A stretch of DNA of 64,000 nucleotides from Pirellulales bacterium. GTDB taxonomy: Bacteria; Planctomycetota; Planctomycetia; Pirellulales; JALHPA01. How positions within the stretch are numbered: position 1 is the first letter of the stretch; each line of letters opens with the position of its first letter. Location of the stretch: the NCBI GenBank assembly GCA_033762255.1, contig JANRLT010000001.1, positions 1 to 64,000 on the forward strand. Direction: 5' to 3'. Under the pieces are notes generated by a model, which saw only the letters and a list, made by a program, of their open reading frames with translations, made no database searches and was not told the origin of the DNA. The position numbers and the translations under genes were made by a program. Of the stretch, positions 5,129 to 37,649 are shown one piece after another.

Positions 5129-5503
5129 TTAGCCGGCCAAGCTTACTGGCCCATGATCATCGCAATGATCGCCGTGGGGATGATGCAAATGGCCATCGAC
5201 CAGATAATCCACATGGTCGCCGTGGGGGACGGCCTCGTGCCCACAACCGGGACCGTGAACATGGTCCGTGGCGTGCGCCCCGCAGTTATGCTGGGGGGTG
5301 CAGGCGGCGGGATTGGCCGCGGAGACGCCGATCACATGCTCGTCCACATGGTCGCCGTGGGGGTGGTGCAAATGCCCGTCGTGCAGATAATCGGTGTGGC
5401 CGTCATGCTGGAGGGCGGTATGCCCACAATCCGGCCCATGCTGATGCGGGTGGTCGGCGTGGACATTGCAACTGGCTTGTGTTTGAGATTGGGTTGCGGA
5501 CAT
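5129..5503 (-). CDS. Histidine-rich metal-binding protein with internal duplication
   Basis: From the ATG at 5503 this is a 124-residue protein with about 27 histidines and several Asp and Cys residues. The block DYLHDGHLHHPHGDHVDEH recurs as DYLVDGHLHHPHGDHCDDH about 60 residues later, and CGH-T/E-A-x-x-H precedes each copy, so the protein is an internal tandem duplication. No signal peptide is seen. A longer frame reaches 5542, but a GGAG 8 bases before the 5503 ATG favours that start. The composition suggests binding, buffering or delivery of Zn, Ni or Co. I remember similar proteins being labelled zinc permeases by mistake; nothing here is membrane-spanning. Confidence 0.75.
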   Translation of the reverse strand: MSATQSQTQASCNVHADHPHQHGPDCGHTALQHDGHTDYLHDGHLHHPHGDHVDEHVIGVSAANPAACTPQHNCGAHATDHVHGPGCGHEAVPHGDHVDYLVDGHLHHPHGDHCDDHGPVSLAG

Positions 5504-5511
5504 GGAAAATG

Positions 5512-5515
5512 CTCC
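5512..5515 (-). promoter_or_regulatory. Ribosome binding site deciding the start of the His-rich gene
   Basis: GGAG lies 8 bases before the ATG at 5503, favouring this start over the in-frame ATG 39 bases upstream. Confidence 0.5.
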
Positions 5516-5621
5516 GGAGGAGTGTCTCATGAATAGAGGCATATAAAGGAATAATCTATTTTACGTTGAAACGTGAATTTTGGCAAATTTGTGGGTGTGG
5601 TATGTTACGGGGTAGGTGGCA

Positions 5622-5978
5622 TTACGACTGTATTAATTCAATTCGATGACCGTCCGGGTCTGCGACGACCGCTCGGCGTCCCCATTCGGAATCACTCGCT
5701 TGTGTCACGATTGCAGCAGGATTATCACTTAAAGCGGCCAAAGCCGCATCTAACGAAGGAACACGAAATCCGATGCGAATGCCCGTCGTGGATTTGCCAT
5801 CAGATGCGACGGGATAAAGCTCAAAAACTTCACCACCCGGCAACTGAGCGGCATAATGTGTAGGGCCGTTACCATGTCTGTGCTGTGAGAACCGCAAACC
5901 GAGATGTGAATAAAACGCCGCCGCTCGTGCTATGTCTGTGGACCTCAGAACAACAAGATTCAAGGATATTTGATTCAT
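5622..5978 (-). CDS. VOC / glyoxalase-like protein
   Basis: A single-domain vicinal-oxygen-chelate protein of 118 residues from the ATG at 5978. The beta-alpha-beta pattern starts LNLVVLRSTDIARAAAFYSH, then GLRF, and ends with VVADPDGHRIELIQ, the usual C-terminal metal-ligand strand with Glu. Upstream in-frame codons reach 6050 but read as junk (MWIVVTTLVGSC), so the inner start is preferred. Substrate is unknown: VOC proteins include lyases, dioxygenases and antibiotic-binding proteins. It belongs to the run of unrelated small minus-strand genes that ends at 8894. Confidence 0.75.
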   Translation of the reverse strand: MNQISLNLVVLRSTDIARAAAFYSHLGLRFSQHRHGNGPTHYAAQLPGGEVFELYPVASDGKSTTGIRIGFRVPSLDAALAALSDNPAAIVTQASDSEWGRRAVVADPDGHRIELIQS

Positions 5979-6077
5979 AGTTTTTGATGATACATTAGCG
6001 AAACGGTTAGCCAGACAAGAACCAACCAACGTTGTTACCACAATCCACATTGCCCACAGGTCCGGTTGACTGCACTA

Positions 6078-6641
6078 TTATCCCTTCATTGCCCCGGCGA
6101 TGAATTTGACAACCGGGGCTTCTAGTAATTGGTGATATGGGACATCTACTGCAAACCATTCAGAATAGGTTCCCAAATCAACTTGATTGTATGCTAGCAC
6201 AAAGTGGAATCCAACAGTCGTATTGGGTGCAACATATGGAATTGCTATTCTTAATCCATGACGTAGATATTCAATTGGATAGTTATCTCCTTCTATTTTG
6301 AGCCATGGCATTCGGTTTTTTAGAGCTTCGCCATCTTCGGTACCGATCATCAAAAGTCCGTCGCCGATTGACCATGATTGAGCATCGAGAGATTCACCAG
6401 AATTAGGGCCGCCTTTTGTTACACATTGAGTAAGTGTCAATTCGAACGAAAAAGCGTGAATTGGGAATGGTACGCAGAAGGAGTCTCGGTAAGCGGCAAC
6501 TAGGTCAACAGCCATACCAGCGGGGGGATTCGGCGTAAATGCGACTTGTTGCACAACGAGGGCATTGTCCAGAAATGGGGAAGAAACACACGACATTGCG
6601 ATGTCACCAAACGGAAAGGTTTCTGTGACGGGGAATGTCAT
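6078..6641 (-). CDS. Hypothetical protein, orphan
   Basis: About 187 residues from the ATG at 6641 (an in-frame ATG exists at 6728, but the region between is poor in coding character). The predicted fold is mostly beta strand, with motifs such as PIHAFSFELTLTQC and VGFHFVLAYNQVD; there is no signal peptide or membrane segment. The family is not recognised. Lower GC and more irregular codon choice than bioB or metH, together with its neighbours, suggest accessory DNA. Confidence 0.55.
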   Translation of the reverse strand: MTFPVTETFPFGDIAMSCVSSPFLDNALVVQQVAFTPNPPAGMAVDLVAAYRDSFCVPFPIHAFSFELTLTQCVTKGGPNSGESLDAQSWSIGDGLLMIGTEDGEALKNRMPWLKIEGDNYPIEYLRHGLRIAIPYVAPNTTVGFHFVLAYNQVDLGTYSEWFAVDVPYHQLLEAPVVKFIAGAMKG

Positions 6642-6800
6642 AGGATTAGCGTGTAAATTAATTGAAATAGTGTACTGACATGAGGTGCATGGATTTAATA
6701 ACCTATCAAACCATCGGCCTAGTTGCACACATTTTTAATAATGTAATGTACCATCCGACGTCAGGCCGGTATCGCTGCGATGCATGGATAGGGGGCATGG

Positions 6801-7124
6801 TTACTCTGTCTCATCGTCTAGGTCCGCTGGTCGTTGCCGTCGTGTCCATGCACCGCCAACACGCTCTCGAACAGCCCGCCATCCAGGGGGAAGGTCCGCA
6901 ACTTCGAGAACTGTCGGATCGAGATGAACTATCTCTTCCAGACACACAACCTTGCCGTCGGCATAGGATGCGTCGGAAATCCCTATAAACTGCCAGCCAT
7001 GATCGTCGGCATCATGGCTTACCAAAAGAATCGGCTCTGTCCCATCCAAAACCTGCCGCATCGTAAGCGTGGCGCAGTTTCGAGGCTGGTCAAATGGCCA
7101 AGAGTCTGTGGGATTTTTGTTCAT
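6801..7124 (-). CDS. DUF2185-like cassette-type protein
   Basis: A 107-residue protein starting MNKNPTDSWPFDQPRNCA. The frame is open upstream to 7304, but that stretch translates recombination-site-like sequence, so the ATG at 7124 is chosen. Characteristic segments are ILLVSHDADDHGWQFIG, CLEEIVHLDPTVLEVADLPP and GWRAVRERVGGAWTR. I remember this pattern (SWPFDQPxNCA, HDxDDHGWQF, LPPGW) from many mobile-integron cassette proteins and immunity-like small proteins. Function is unknown. It sits in a minus-strand series of single-gene units. Confidence 0.65.
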   Translation of the reverse strand: MNKNPTDSWPFDQPRNCATLTMRQVLDGTEPILLVSHDADDHGWQFIGISDASYADGKVVCLEEIVHLDPTVLEVADLPPGWRAVRERVGGAWTRRQRPADLDDETE

Positions 7125-7224
7125 GAAATGCGAATTCTCCGAATGACCCAAACTCCGGGACCAGACCCGTGAGAAGCAAGGATTACAATAGTGACGCGTT
7201 GGCCGTGTTCGTTGCAGTGTATGG

Positions 7225-7485
7225 CTAGGTGTTATTCGTGTCCTCATGAACTCTCTGCCCGATGCGAACACTGATGGTACGCCACTCCTCGCCGTGAAAT
7301 GCAAGTCTGCCGTGATCTATCCATGCTTCTCGCCACAAAGAATAAATGAGCTGTCGCAAATCTTCGCGAGCGTCGTTGTAGCCAAACTGAATGCCACACG
7401 ATGGGCATATCTCCTGTGAACCCCGGCCGTCCCGCCACGGCTCGTAATCTAACTCCGTCTGACAAACTGGGCAAGTAGTAGTCAT
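7225..7485 (-). CDS. Small zinc-ribbon cassette protein
   Basis: An 86-residue protein with two CxxC pairs, C5-P-V-C8 and C27-P-S-C30, then G-I-Q-F-G-Y, giving a zinc ribbon at the N-terminus. The remainder is a short helical region (REDLRQLIYSLWREAWIDHG). The start lies 14 bases after the 3' core of the attC site at 7499-7588, the position expected for a gene in an integron cassette. Downstream of its stop is a degenerate site. Similar proteins are frequent in cassette arrays as I recall. Function is unknown. Confidence 0.65.
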   Translation of the reverse strand: MTTTCPVCQTELDYEPWRDGRGSQEICPSCGIQFGYNDAREDLRQLIYSLWREAWIDHGRLAFHGEEWRTISVRIGQRVHEDTNNT

Positions 7486-7498
7486 GGCGTATGCAGCG

Positions 7499-7588
7499 GC
7501 CTAACACCAATGTAACCCGGCTAAGGCCAAGAAACTTTGATTTCAAAATCCGCACGATCAGAAGCTCGGGTGCATTGGATTGTTAAGA
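7499..7588 (-). mobile_element. attC recombination site (integron cassette site)
   Basis: On the minus strand the 90-bp element begins TCTTAACAATCCAATG and ends CATTGGTGTTAGGC. The 3' core GTTAGGC (7499-7505) fits the GTTRRRY consensus and the 5' inverse core is CTTAAC (7582-7588). The arms pair well: CCAATGxxCCCGxGC near the 5' end is complementary to GCCGGGTTxCATTGG near the 3' end, with the extra unpaired bases typical of attC. It starts 10 bases after the stop of the gene at 7598-8134 and ends 14 bases before the next start, exactly the cassette arrangement. Confidence 0.75.
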
Positions 7589-7597
7589 GCAAAAGGA

Positions 7598-8134
7598 TTA
7601 TGAGACCCATGTCATGATCCGGAAAATCTCGTCACCATCTCTCGTTCGATACACGAATCCACCCTCACCGCTAAGCGGTCCAGAAACGTCGCTCCATTCT
7701 TCCTTTATGATATCGTGAAATCGGTACTCTATTCGATTGTATAGCATCGTGGCTCGACCAATTTCAAAGAGCTTAAGTATAGCAAAACCAGTTCGCCCCC
7801 AATGATCGTCGTTCAGTCGCCAATCTAAATGATGGCGGATCGCGTGTCGTAACAAAGCCCTTTGGGCCTCGAGTTCGAGTTTATTCGGATGAGAAGAATC
7901 GCCAATGTGTCGGGTGGTTTCAAGTTCTGTGAGAAGGTCTTGTGGATTCATTCGAAACTGCGGGTGTTCTGGAAGCATTGAAGTCACTACGCAAGATACA
8001 AATGGCGGTCTCTTGGGAACTACCTGCTTTTTTGTTCCATTTTTACACGGTGCGCAGAATCCTCCAGTACGATCCGCCGTGGATTGCAATATCACGACAC
8101 CACAGGTTCTGCATGATGTCTTTGGTTCGCTCAT
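7598..8134 (-). CDS. Cassette-type protein with N-terminal zinc ribbon
   Basis: A 178-residue protein with C8-R-T-C11 and C27-A-P-C30 flanking I-L-x-x-T-A-x-x-T-G-G-F, a zinc-ribbon start I associate with other integron-cassette proteins. The middle is charged and helical (LELEAQRALLRHAIRHHLDW) and the C-terminus is beta-rich (FVYRTRDGDEIFRIMTWVS). No signal peptide. The gene is bounded by an attC-like core 7 bases before its start and by a full attC 10 bases after its stop, so it appears to be a complete cassette. Function is unknown. Confidence 0.7.
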   Translation of the reverse strand: MSEPKTSCRTCGVVILQSTADRTGGFCAPCKNGTKKQVVPKRPPFVSCVVTSMLPEHPQFRMNPQDLLTELETTRHIGDSSHPNKLELEAQRALLRHAIRHHLDWRLNDDHWGRTGFAILKLFEIGRATMLYNRIEYRFHDIIKEEWSDVSGPLSGEGGFVYRTRDGDEIFRIMTWVS

Positions 8135-8141
8135 CTATTTT

Positions 8142-8248
8142 TCCTAACGACCGCCAACACCCGGCACGCGCCGCGAAGGATTCCATGATAAATACGGGCC
8201 GACCGTGTGCTCTGCGTAGATGGTTTTGCTATGCTGCGTTCTCGTTTA
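8142..8248 (-). mobile_element. Putative degenerate attC site
   Basis: The minus strand ends with GTGTTGGCGGTCGTTAGGA, whose GTTAGG core (8142-8148) lies 7 bases before the next gene start. The predicted partner at the 5' side, next to the stop of 8250-8894, reads TAAACGA and pairs only over about six bases with TCGTTAG. Core, position and length (about 105 bp) fit attC; the weak inner pairing keeps confidence moderate. Confidence 0.45.
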
Positions 8249-8249
8249 C

Positions 8250-8894
8250 TCAGCGGCAGAAATCATCTTGGGTTTTTTGATCACCGATTTCCGAAGTGTA
8301 TTCAACAATCTCCAAAGCACGTTTTGGTATGGTAACGCCATACTTTCCGATTAGCCATTCTTGAAATTTTGCGTTTGGGGGAACGTAAAATTCATTCCCA
8401 TTTTCTGGGGAGTTAGGTGGATACTCATATTCTGCGTTCCAGCAGATTTCATCATAGCCTATCGCAAGCAATCGAAGGAAATCAAGTGCGTTGTTTGCCA
8501 GGACATAACACAAGACAGAGCCTGATCCAGAGCCCATGTGTATGATGCGTTGCACACTATTGTCGTCGATCCAGAATGCGGCTACTGAACCTTCAGCTCC
8601 AGTTTGTGCAAAAACGCAAAGTCGATTGACGACTTCAGGGCGGTTATGGCCAAACCAATAGTGAACGTAGGCGTTTCCGGAAGCGCCGTATTCAATGTTC
8701 TTTCCACCAGGACGCTCGGTATCAGTCCAGCCAGCCTTGAGTTCGACCTCAGGGTAGAGAAAGCCGATCCGCCCGCCATCGTTGTCAACAAACATTCGAT
8801 TCGTTTCGATCCATTCAAACAGCGCGCTTTGCTCAGTGGGCATCGACATGCCCGCGAGTAGTTTGGCTTTAAGTTGAGATCGGAGTAACGACAT
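8250..8894 (-). CDS. SMI1/KNR4-like (SUKH-type) cassette protein
   Basis: A 214-residue protein. The segment VQRIIHMGSGSGSVLCYVLA followed by DFLRLLAIGYDEICWNAEY resembles SMI1/KNR4 (SUKH) superfamily proteins, many of which neutralise contact-dependent or polymorphic toxins. The tail carries F-x-x-W-L-x-x-x-Y-G-V-T-I-P. No signal peptide. It is the outermost gene of the cassette-like run. Immunity function is inferred from superfamily similarity only. No toxin gene is near it. Confidence 0.65.
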   Translation of the reverse strand: MSLLRSQLKAKLLAGMSMPTEQSALFEWIETNRMFVDNDGGRIGFLYPEVELKAGWTDTERPGGKNIEYGASGNAYVHYWFGHNRPEVVNRLCVFAQTGAEGSVAAFWIDDNSVQRIIHMGSGSGSVLCYVLANNALDFLRLLAIGYDEICWNAEYEYPPNSPENGNEFYVPPNAKFQEWLIGKYGVTIPKRALEIVEYTSEIGDQKTQDDFCR

Positions 8895-9185
8895 TTTTTA
8901 GCCGCATAGTAATACGTTATCCAATCAACCAAAAAAGCTATATCGCTGGATACATTTACCATAATAAATCTTGTCATACATTGCAACGTTTTTTCTGGGT
9001 AGTGATTAACCCAGGGGATAAGTTCACGCCCAACCGTAATTTGCAGGAATAGTGAATGGTATCTCCCATGCAAACCGGATACCGCCGGTTGGCGCAATCT
9101 GCCAGTTTCGTGTGACGATCACGCCGGGAAAAATCAGTACAAATCTCGCGGAATCCCGCTCATCTGTGTGCTATGTATCTCTCTG

Positions 9186-9255
9186 CTCCGCGCTCCGCTG
9201 CGCGACTAAACCTCCCGCCTCCGGACCGCCGATGCCATCAGCGGCTTTGTGCGCG
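9186..9255 (+). repeat. Dispersed repeat unit B, copy 1
   Basis: Consists of CTCCGCGCTCCGCTGCGCG, a GACTAAAC joint, then CTCCGGACCGCCGATGCCAT and a CAGCGGCTTTGTGCGCG end. The same parts recur in order at 9481-9566. Confidence 0.7.
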
Positions 9256-9280
9256 GCGGGGCTAATCAAAGGCCAAACGC

Positions 9281-9311
9281 CAGTTCGGCGAGTAAAACTA
9301 GCCGCTACGGG
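9281..9311 (+). repeat. Dispersed repeat unit A, copy 1
   Basis: Core GGCGAGTAAAACTAGCCGCT followed by ACGGG. Two further copies occur at 31939-31966 and 32001-32030. Confidence 0.7.
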
Positions 9312-9480
9312 TTGAGTTTCCATGGTGCGCTGCGCGAACCTGGGCTAGCGGATGCAACCGCTTCACGGTAGAAAGAGAAAAGGGCAGCGTGTGTGAATGG
9401 CTTTCCGGTGGTATCGCTGCGCTCAAACACCGGCTAAGGGCTGTCAACCCTGCGGGATGGTAGTTACCGTAAACAAAAAC

Positions 9481-9566
9481 CCGCGCTCCGCTGCGCGTCG
9501 CGACTAAACAAAGTATTTGCGACTCCCGCCTCCGGACCGCCGATGCCATCGGCGGCTTTGTGCGCG
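9481..9566 (+). repeat. Dispersed repeat unit B, copy 2
   Basis: Same parts as copy 1 with an extra short insert (GTCGC and AAGTATTTGCGA) between them; ends GGCGGCTTTGTGCGCG. A related short palindrome, CCGCCGATGCCATCGGCGG, lies near 63495. Confidence 0.7.
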
Positions 9567-9674
9567 TTGCGGTTAACCAAACTCCACTCCTCCATTACTC
9601 CAAACTCCATTATCTTCTCCCCAGTCCCTTGCTAACGCGTCGGGCTAAGTGCGTCGGGCTAAACGGTCTGGTAA

Positions 9675-11024
9675 TCAAATCCCAAACTGCCTTAGCACCA
9701 GTTCGTACACGTCGGTATCCATCATCGGGGGGCCTTCCAGCACGCCCGGTTGACTGGTGAGGATTATTCCCCGTTGACCTTCGGTCCGGGCCGGCGCGCC
9801 GTGCGAACCCTTGATCAGCGTGGCGTCCAGCGGGATACTCTTGGTCGCCGGATCAAAGCACAGTTCCACCGGGTCGTACCCCGGCTTGCGATGAATGTCC
9901 ACCGTGCGGGCAAAACTGGGCGCTTGGGCGTCATCGTGCCACCAGTAATACGCCTGCCAACTGTTGGGCGTACTAATCAGAATCGCCTCCCCCGCGCGGG
10001 GGTGGTCCAGGTCGTATTTTTCCCGTTCGGCCCCGATCAGCACCTCGTCGATTCCCGCAGTTCCGGTAAAGAGCTCGCGGACGCGTTCGAGCACGGCGGG
10101 ATCGGCATTTTGCACAAAAACGTGGGAAAACTGGTGATCGACCATCGCCCAGGCCGCGCTGGCGGCCAGGTCCAGTTCTTCGCCAATGCCATCCGCCGCG
10201 GGGCGGACATTTAATAGTCCCGCGTTCCGCAGCACGCGGTTGGGATACGTCACATGGTTGACCGGCGAAATCACATATTCACTGGCAATGATGTACAGCG
10301 GCGGCAGGCGGTCCTGGTCGGGAATATTTTCGTACGCGCGATCCAGACCCTGCGTGAGCTGCGACAGGACCACATCCAAATCGACGCAGGCGCGGTGCGC
10401 CTCGGGACTGTCGGGGCCGAACTTTTGGGCGGCGTAGTCCAGGTGGGGAAGGTAGATATAAAAAAAGTGGGGCGTGTCGCGCTGGGCGGCCCAGATGGCG
10501 GAATCGACAATCCACGAGGTCGATTTGATATTGGCCAGCGGTCCCCAAAAATGGTGCAGGGGAAAATGCCCGATCGCGTCGCGCAGCTCGCCATACAGCG
10601 ATTGCGGTTTGGTGTAGCACCAGAGCGATTCGCTGCCATCGGGATTATGGATTGGGGCGGGGGTGCAAACCAGCGCCGCCTCCGCCCCTTTGCTCAGCAA
10701 AGGAAACCAGACCGCGCTGGTGAGGCTGTCATCATGCTGGCTGAGGATATCCCAGATTTGCGGCTGCTCGATCACGTCGTTCCAAGCGGTCCACAGTTCC
10801 GGGTGCTGTTTCTCGCGCCAGTAAAAGCCGTTTCCCACCACGCCATGCTTGCGCGGCGGCTGGCCGGTCGTCATGTTCACCTGCACCGCGCAGGTGACGC
10901 AGGGAAAACTGGGAACCAGCGTGGTCCGGTCCCCATGGCTGGTGAGCCGCGACAAATGTGGCATCCGCGCGAGATCGCTTTCACGCAGGCCGGGAATGGA
11001 TAAGAGGATGACAGTGTCGGGCAT
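9675..11024 (-). CDS. Alkaline-phosphatase-superfamily phosphodiesterase-like protein
   Basis: A 449-residue protein of the type I phosphodiesterase / nucleotide pyrophosphatase fold. The nucleophile loop is [18 protein letters not shown] near residue 40, with [10 protein letters not shown] after it, the usual start of this family. Later motifs are [13 protein letters not shown] (metal-ligand D-x-x-x-x-x-x-x-x-P-E region) and [13 protein letters not shown], where typical members have S-D-H-G-M. The first Asp of the fold (usual D-G-L) reads I-P-G-L. These changes match a distinct subfamily, or reduced metal binding. No signal peptide. Substrate is unknown. Lies 96 bases downstream of metH on the same strand, separated by AT-rich repeat DNA. 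Confidence 0.75.
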
Positions 11025-36539: not shown

Positions 36540-36586
36540 TCACCGCGTAGCGGTGAAGTATCCTAGCCGTGGGCGAGAGCCCACGG
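36540..36586 (+). repeat. Composite palindromic repeat, left copy
   Basis: Two hairpins in series: CACCGC-GTA-GCGGTG (36541-36555) and CCGTGGGC-GAGA-GCCCACGG (36567-36586), joined by AAGTATCCTAG. The reverse complement matches the copy at 37390-37438, so the two form an inverted pair around the small genes at 36693-37301. Confidence 0.75.
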
Positions 36587-37301: not shown

Positions 37302-37649
37302 ATTGGCATTGGGAAATTGTGCAAGAACAACTCAGTTGACCCTAAAATCGAGTACCCATCGGGCAGCGGCAAAATTTTGAAAAGAAGCATTCCGTGGGCT
37401 GACGCCCACGGCTACATTCCGTCACCACTGCGTGGTGCAGAGACGATAACTTCTAACCAAGCCTCTATGAACAGCCGCGCATGATAACAAGCCAGCGGCG
37501 GCACATGGCACCCAGCTTTCCCCCGGTAATGCTCGCTTAGGCTCGATCCTGCACAACTAATCAAATGCAAAATGATGAACGCAGAATGCGGAATTGAATT
37601 GCCTGCCCTTCTAAATTCTGCATTCAAACTTCTGACTTTCCCCGCCACC
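37302..37649. other. Spacer containing the right palindromic copy
   Basis: About 350 bases. It holds the repeat copy at 37390-37438 and a short open frame upstream of the remnant gene, nothing else supported. Confidence 0.4.
37390..37438 (-). repeat. Composite palindromic repeat, right copy
   Basis: CCGTGGGC-TGAC-GCCCACGG (37393-37412) followed by CTACATTCCGT and CACCAC-TGC-GTGGTG (37424-37438), the reverse order of the left copy. Confidence 0.75.

Follow-up and report, generated by a model that had tools for sequence, protein, structure and literature searches.

The question raised by this locus is whether a row of small genes facing the same way near the start of a Pirellulales contig constitutes a group of integron cassettes and, if so, what has become of the integrase that would have placed them there. 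The stretch of DNA that we analysed, referred to throughout as the window, comprises 64,000 nucleotides, and a preliminary description had read part of it as a cluster of attC sites lacking an integrase (CALIN). In an integron, the bases that follow the cut (TTRRRY) open a cassette and the R'' box closes it, so that the start of a cassette and its R'' should be complementary.

Methods

The genome is Pirellulales-like, 96.6% complete, and amounts to 5.47 Mb in 72 contigs. Two covariance models of attC were built, both with the window left out. The first, the five-site model, was derived from three sites on contig C27 and two in genome G049, where an intact intI stands at a distance of about 1 kb; in its consensus the L'' side has two extrahelical bases, and compensating changes affect both partners in 13 of the 25 pairs. 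The second was made from 27 sites, and finds two sites (24 bits) in an array of a Vibrio replicon, next to the gene annotated there as an integron integrase. The Infernal E-values given below are rough, since the calibration was short. A home-made hairpin scan, in which chance matches were frequent, was used solely to pick training sites, and matches to the box pattern across the genome (183 per strand) fell below those of a reversed control, so that the boxes alone lack specificity. For the wider order, 58 genomes, the present one included, were searched with an attC threshold of E<=0.001.

Results

The features of the window considered here are as follows.

7499-7588, minus strand: attC of the 7598-8134 cassette, with R'' TCTTAAC, L'', L' and R' GTTAGGC
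8142-8234, minus strand: decayed attC of the 8250-8894 cassette, with R'' GCATAGC and R' GTTAGGA
7505-8147, minus strand: inferred complete cassette, running from TTAGGA up to the G that opens the following R'
8148-8909, minus strand: probable second cassette, starting with CTATGC (8909-8904)
7598-8134, minus strand: cassette gene, 178 aa, with an N-terminal CxxC..CxxC ribbon and a C-terminal domain of unassigned fold
8250-8894, minus strand: 214-aa gene of the second cassette, of no family, with relatives in 3 of 391 other genomes of the phylum
7225-7485, minus strand: 86-aa CxxC protein
6801-7124, minus strand: Imm33-like (DUF2185) protein, 107 aa, a putative array member only
6078-6728, minus strand: 216-aa orphan in the low-GC block, no attC found
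5622-5978, minus strand: VOC/glyoxalase-family protein in the low-GC block, no attC found

The site at 7499-7588 is a genuine attC, with its boxes, its arms and its place between genes all as first described. Reading along the minus strand, R'' occupies 7588-7582 and R' 7505-7499, giving 90 bases in all for a pattern (RYYYAAC...GTTRRRY) that spans 50-150, although the first base of TCTTAAC departs from RYYYAAC. Its arms pair over CCAATG/CATTGG and CCCG/CGGG, and the whole is set in the gap from the 178-aa gene, with its stop at 7598, to the 86-aa gene, with its ATG at 7485. The match to the covariance models supports an imperfect L''/L' palindrome, in which one of the two extrahelical bases on the L'' side is retained as a bulge and the other falls inside a small internal loop; L' has TTAC where relatives have TG, which disturbs the first extrahelical position. 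The five-site model, from whose training set the site was absent, scores it at 36.2 bits (E=5.9e-6 genome-wide) and, with filters off and both strands searched, ranks 7588-7499 as the best match in the 64-kb window (E=6.9e-8). The 27-site model, in which the site was likewise absent from training, gives 40.2 bits (E=1.9e-6 genome-wide). When the genome was searched with the site itself, one further place was recovered, C27:64849-64897, which belongs to an unmistakable attC array; the 49 interior bases are 82% identical and the window site can be aligned with the attCs of C27. Searched with Rfam, the region returned no match to attC. Folding had been proposed as a check. The single-strand energy of 7499-7588 and 8142-8250 proved uninformative; for 7496-7591 the fold was of ordinary stability (z=-0.95), so fold energy by itself would have missed the site.

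A second GTTAGG core had been placed at 8142-8148, seven bases before the next gene, and this too is real: GTTAGGA at 8148-8142, ahead of the ATG at 8134, closes, at its 3' end, a decayed attC that runs from 8234 to 8142. The 27-site model scores it at 24.4 bits, with E=2.7e-5 over 5400-9700 (4.3 kb) and 0.035 genome-wide, so that it is only marginal at the scale of the genome. In the search of both strands of the window with the five-site model it ranks second (E=0.087), and the two best matches in 64 kb therefore share a strand and bracket a single gene, that for the 178-aa protein. Further along, the sites described as eroded upstream of 7225 and around 6720-6800 were not recovered: a candidate at 7138-7230 reached 6.2 bits (E=2.3) with the 27-site model and 6705-6806 gave no match, which leaves the genes below 7225 with no attC. 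The attC that would belong to the 86-aa gene was unrecognisable in the same search of 5400-9700.

The ends of the cassettes can be compared with one another. Across the genome, 13 of 17 other cassettes have a start that is complementary to their R'' at all seven positions; shuffling the ends gave a mean of 1.8 full agreements and a maximum of eight in 20,000 trials. The window cassette at 7505-8147 agrees at six of seven positions (GTTAGGA against TCTTAAC), and only one of the 17 other ends would match its start that closely. For the second cassette, CTATGC (8909-8904), nine bases ahead of the ATG of the 214-aa gene, is complementary without a mismatch, read in reverse, to the six bases that open R'' GCATAGC (8234-8228), giving six of six after the first base; as a coincidence of six bases this is only suggestive of where the 8148-8909 cassette starts. 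The 178-aa gene, bracketed by two attCs, is one cassette and the 214-aa gene is very probably another. Since the 86-aa gene begins 13 bases past R' GTTAGGC, its start is also that of a cassette.

GC content dips to 46-52% over 5500-9000, against 52-61% in the surroundings, and the four genes that had been counted here do face one way, although the number becomes six once 5622-5978 and 6078-6728 are included. Relatives of these genes are scarce among 391 other genomes of the phylum: none were found for the 86-aa protein, 19 for the Imm33-like protein, and for the 178-aa protein only those of G113, a member of another family, which has two copies (36-37%), one of them flanked by attCs. The DUF2185-like label for 6801-7124 is plausible, but the match to DUF2185/Imm33 (E=5.9e-4) lies below the curated cut-off. 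The SUKH-like label for the 214-aa protein fared less well, with no Pfam or NCBIfam match and a low-confidence predicted structure (mean pLDDT 68) that matched nothing in the PDB at E<=0.001; profile matches to the short repeats of designed propellers and of lectins were read as composition, not homology. From shallow alignments, the predicted structures of the 178-aa and 214-aa proteins gave no significant PDB fold match, and PADLOC assigned no defence family to the genes of the window. Immunity-type families do recur among the cassettes (Imm33-like in the window, Imm1 on C47); the majority of cassettes, however, belong to no family, and we do not claim a functional theme.

The N-terminal ribbon of the 178-aa protein is found again on C47, in the first cassette, fused there to a DMP19 domain, and no common DNA origin for the 5' ends of these two zinc-ribbon cassettes was found at the nucleotide level. 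The same CxxC ribbon, with a different C-terminal domain each time, is seen at L045 6648-7394, at window 7598-8134 and at L102 4992-5576, the last of which encodes a DUF4375 protein and belongs to a plasmid of Vibrio campbellii.

Beyond the block, the phosphodiesterase at 9675-11024 is present in 16 named planctomycete loci with no other window gene near it, so an empty site cannot be read from synteny. We also observed a repeat, CCGATGCCATC[AG]GCGGCTTTGTGCG, at 9229-9253 and 9540-9564, two copies just past the cassette block in GC-rich surroundings, where chance would predict none. Two Acido-Lenti-1 RNA matches above the Rfam gathering score lie about 0.8 kb apart elsewhere in the window, at 37392-37437 (plus) and 36541-36586 (minus).

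Scoring the best 150 candidates with the 27-site model revealed at least about 27 attCs at about 12 loci. Contig C27 carries an array of six and a single site at 26 kb; C47 has five, C14 three, C11 two or three, C39 two, C36 two or more and C60 two, and the remaining loci are C56, C30, C71 and the window. Single-attC loci include C56, C30, C27 at 26 kb and C71. The attCs of the window are among the lowest-scoring in the genome, and no copies of its cassettes were found in other arrays.

With a general intI model, the whole genome yielded only Xer-like matches, reaching at most 78 bits against a cut-off of 265. A profile of six Pirellulales IntIs, by comparison, matched C47:23552-23698 (plus strand) over positions 2-50 of 313 (E=7e-12). 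The 90-aa frame at this place matches Phage_int_SAM_4, and its only NCBIfam matches are two integron-integrase models (E=8.8e-14 and 4.3e-13) over the first 51 residues. The stub points away from the five-attC array, whose first cassette starts GTTCGTTGC and closes with R'' GCAACGAAC, in the manner of an attI junction, and it abuts a following gene whose product matches the REP-associated tyrosine transposases (E=8e-22, with 77.7 bits just short of the cut-off of 80) and which is flanked by inverted repeats.

L045 7445-7717, on C47 of the present genome (G000): intI stub
L045 7886-8479, on the same contig: REP-associated transposase gene

C47 carries a canonical integron platform, the original one of this genome, with its attI-like junction and five attCs, in which intI is cut to roughly its first 51 residues. 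An intact intI with attI beside an array is found neither in the window nor on C47, which has the stub alone, and no other intI fragment was found in the assembly. The window holds no IntI, as first stated, but the genome as a whole is not free of intI.

Among the 58 genomes of the order, attCs occur in 25 and an intI above the cut-off in eight, all eight of which are attC-positive (Fisher p=5.6e-4, uncorrected for kinship). The closed genomes G007 and G024 have eight and six attCs and no recognisable intI. In G013, from another family, an N-terminal intI stub (C6:182784-182897; L096 4741-4898) adjoins three attCs and runs into a 47-base palindrome, AAAAGGGGACATTC...GAATGTCCCCTTTT. The stub arrangement recurs in two families (C47 here and C6 of G013), two cases being too few to tell whether there is a pattern. 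An intI pseudogene with two stops also adjoins three attCs at G016:C2:712000-724000 (L098), apparently on the strand of the cassettes, which is the reverse orientation.

Discussion

Taken together, the locus is very likely a CALIN made up of at least one complete and one probable cassette, arranged head to tail on the minus strand and derived from an integron whose platform is on C47 and whose intI is truncated. Two attCs lie 553 bases apart, the second at E=0.035 genome-wide, the genes they serve are on the minus strand, and the sole intI material in the genome is the C47 stub, which bears out the CALIN reading first proposed. Given a platform with a truncated intI, the cluster becomes a CALIN satellite to an integron whose integrase is dead. 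The sites, the family that they form, the platform with its stub and the genome-wide agreement of cassette ends are seen directly in the sequences; the route of insertion, past activity and present immobility are inferences and may be pictured as follows. The tyrosine recombinase of a once-working integron would most likely have inserted the cassettes, binding the folded single strand of attC, cutting between G and TTRRRY and joining the cassette to a site other than attI; alternatively, a piece of array may have arrived later by rearrangement. With only the first ~51 residues of intI present and the remainder missing from the assembly, the cassettes should no longer move, and neither excision nor shuffling would be expected unless an integrase acts from elsewhere.

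An origin of the cluster by rearrangement, as a piece split from the C47 or C27 array, in place of off-target insertion by the integrase, is possible if rather doubtful. Two or more cassettes in tandem do resemble an array, and contig ends and transposase-like genes are found close to several of the arrays. The spread of attCs over roughly a dozen loci, several of which hold only one, is however a better fit to repeated off-target insertion, and the other arrays lack copies of the window cassettes.

It is very unlikely that an intact integron integrase, encoded on a plasmid or in the ~3% of the genome that the assembly lacks, still acts on these cassettes. The assembly is incomplete and an intact intI could be absent from it, and contigs C11, C27 and C56 break off a short way from attC arrays; yet the C47 gene is truncated and no other full copy was found, closed genomes of the order also carry attCs with no recognisable intI, and the low scores of the window sites are as expected once activity has been lost. 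A chance hairpin between ordinary genes has almost no probability left to it, since the unremarkable fold energy is outweighed by the covariance-model E-values for both sites, their fitting position and strand, the identity with a C27 attC and the agreement between cassette starts and R''.

Precedents exist for CALINs, for attCs in planctomycetes and for pseudogenes of intI. The cluster resembles other CALINs in having at least two attCs, small codirected genes and no adjacent intI (IntegronFinder 2.0, PMC9024848; PMC8618304). It differs in that only two sites are recognisable, one of them marginal, and in belonging to a set of about 12 attC loci, the platform intI of the same genome being truncated. 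Both routes considered above, off-target insertion by the integrase and breakaway from an array, are named in a review (PMC8618304). In Xanthomonas, dispersed CALINs accompany loss of intI (PMC12444791), and there as here clusters lie away from a platform whose integrase is progressively lost; the present case concerns another phylum and has stub and satellites within one genome. A covariance model specific to Planctomycetes-type attCs exists (PMC8352920), and the sites of this genome likewise form one conserved family common to the order, although we assign them to that type from taxonomy and our own covariance model. Pseudogenes make up about one third of intI genes (PMC2426708); C47 shares with them an inactive integrase beside a cassette array, and differs in being truncated after ~51 residues beside a REP-associated transposase gene.

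A broader proposal, that Pirellulales integrons tend to freeze in a recurrent manner, is in our view improbable as it stands. Under it, a REP element or a REP-associated transposase would sever intI close behind the part encoding the N-terminal domain; attI and the start of intI would survive, perhaps because they hold the cassette promoter, and the cassettes would live on as many dispersed, immobile CALINs. The two stubs beside REP-type elements nonetheless offer a lead on the route by which intI is lost. What the locus adds is a well-resolved case of integron death, in which a single planctomycete genome shows the satellite cassettes together with the remnant of the platform and its truncated integrase, set within an order where attC outlives intI (25 against eight of 58 genomes), and it provides material for asking which cassette genes stay after mobility is lost.
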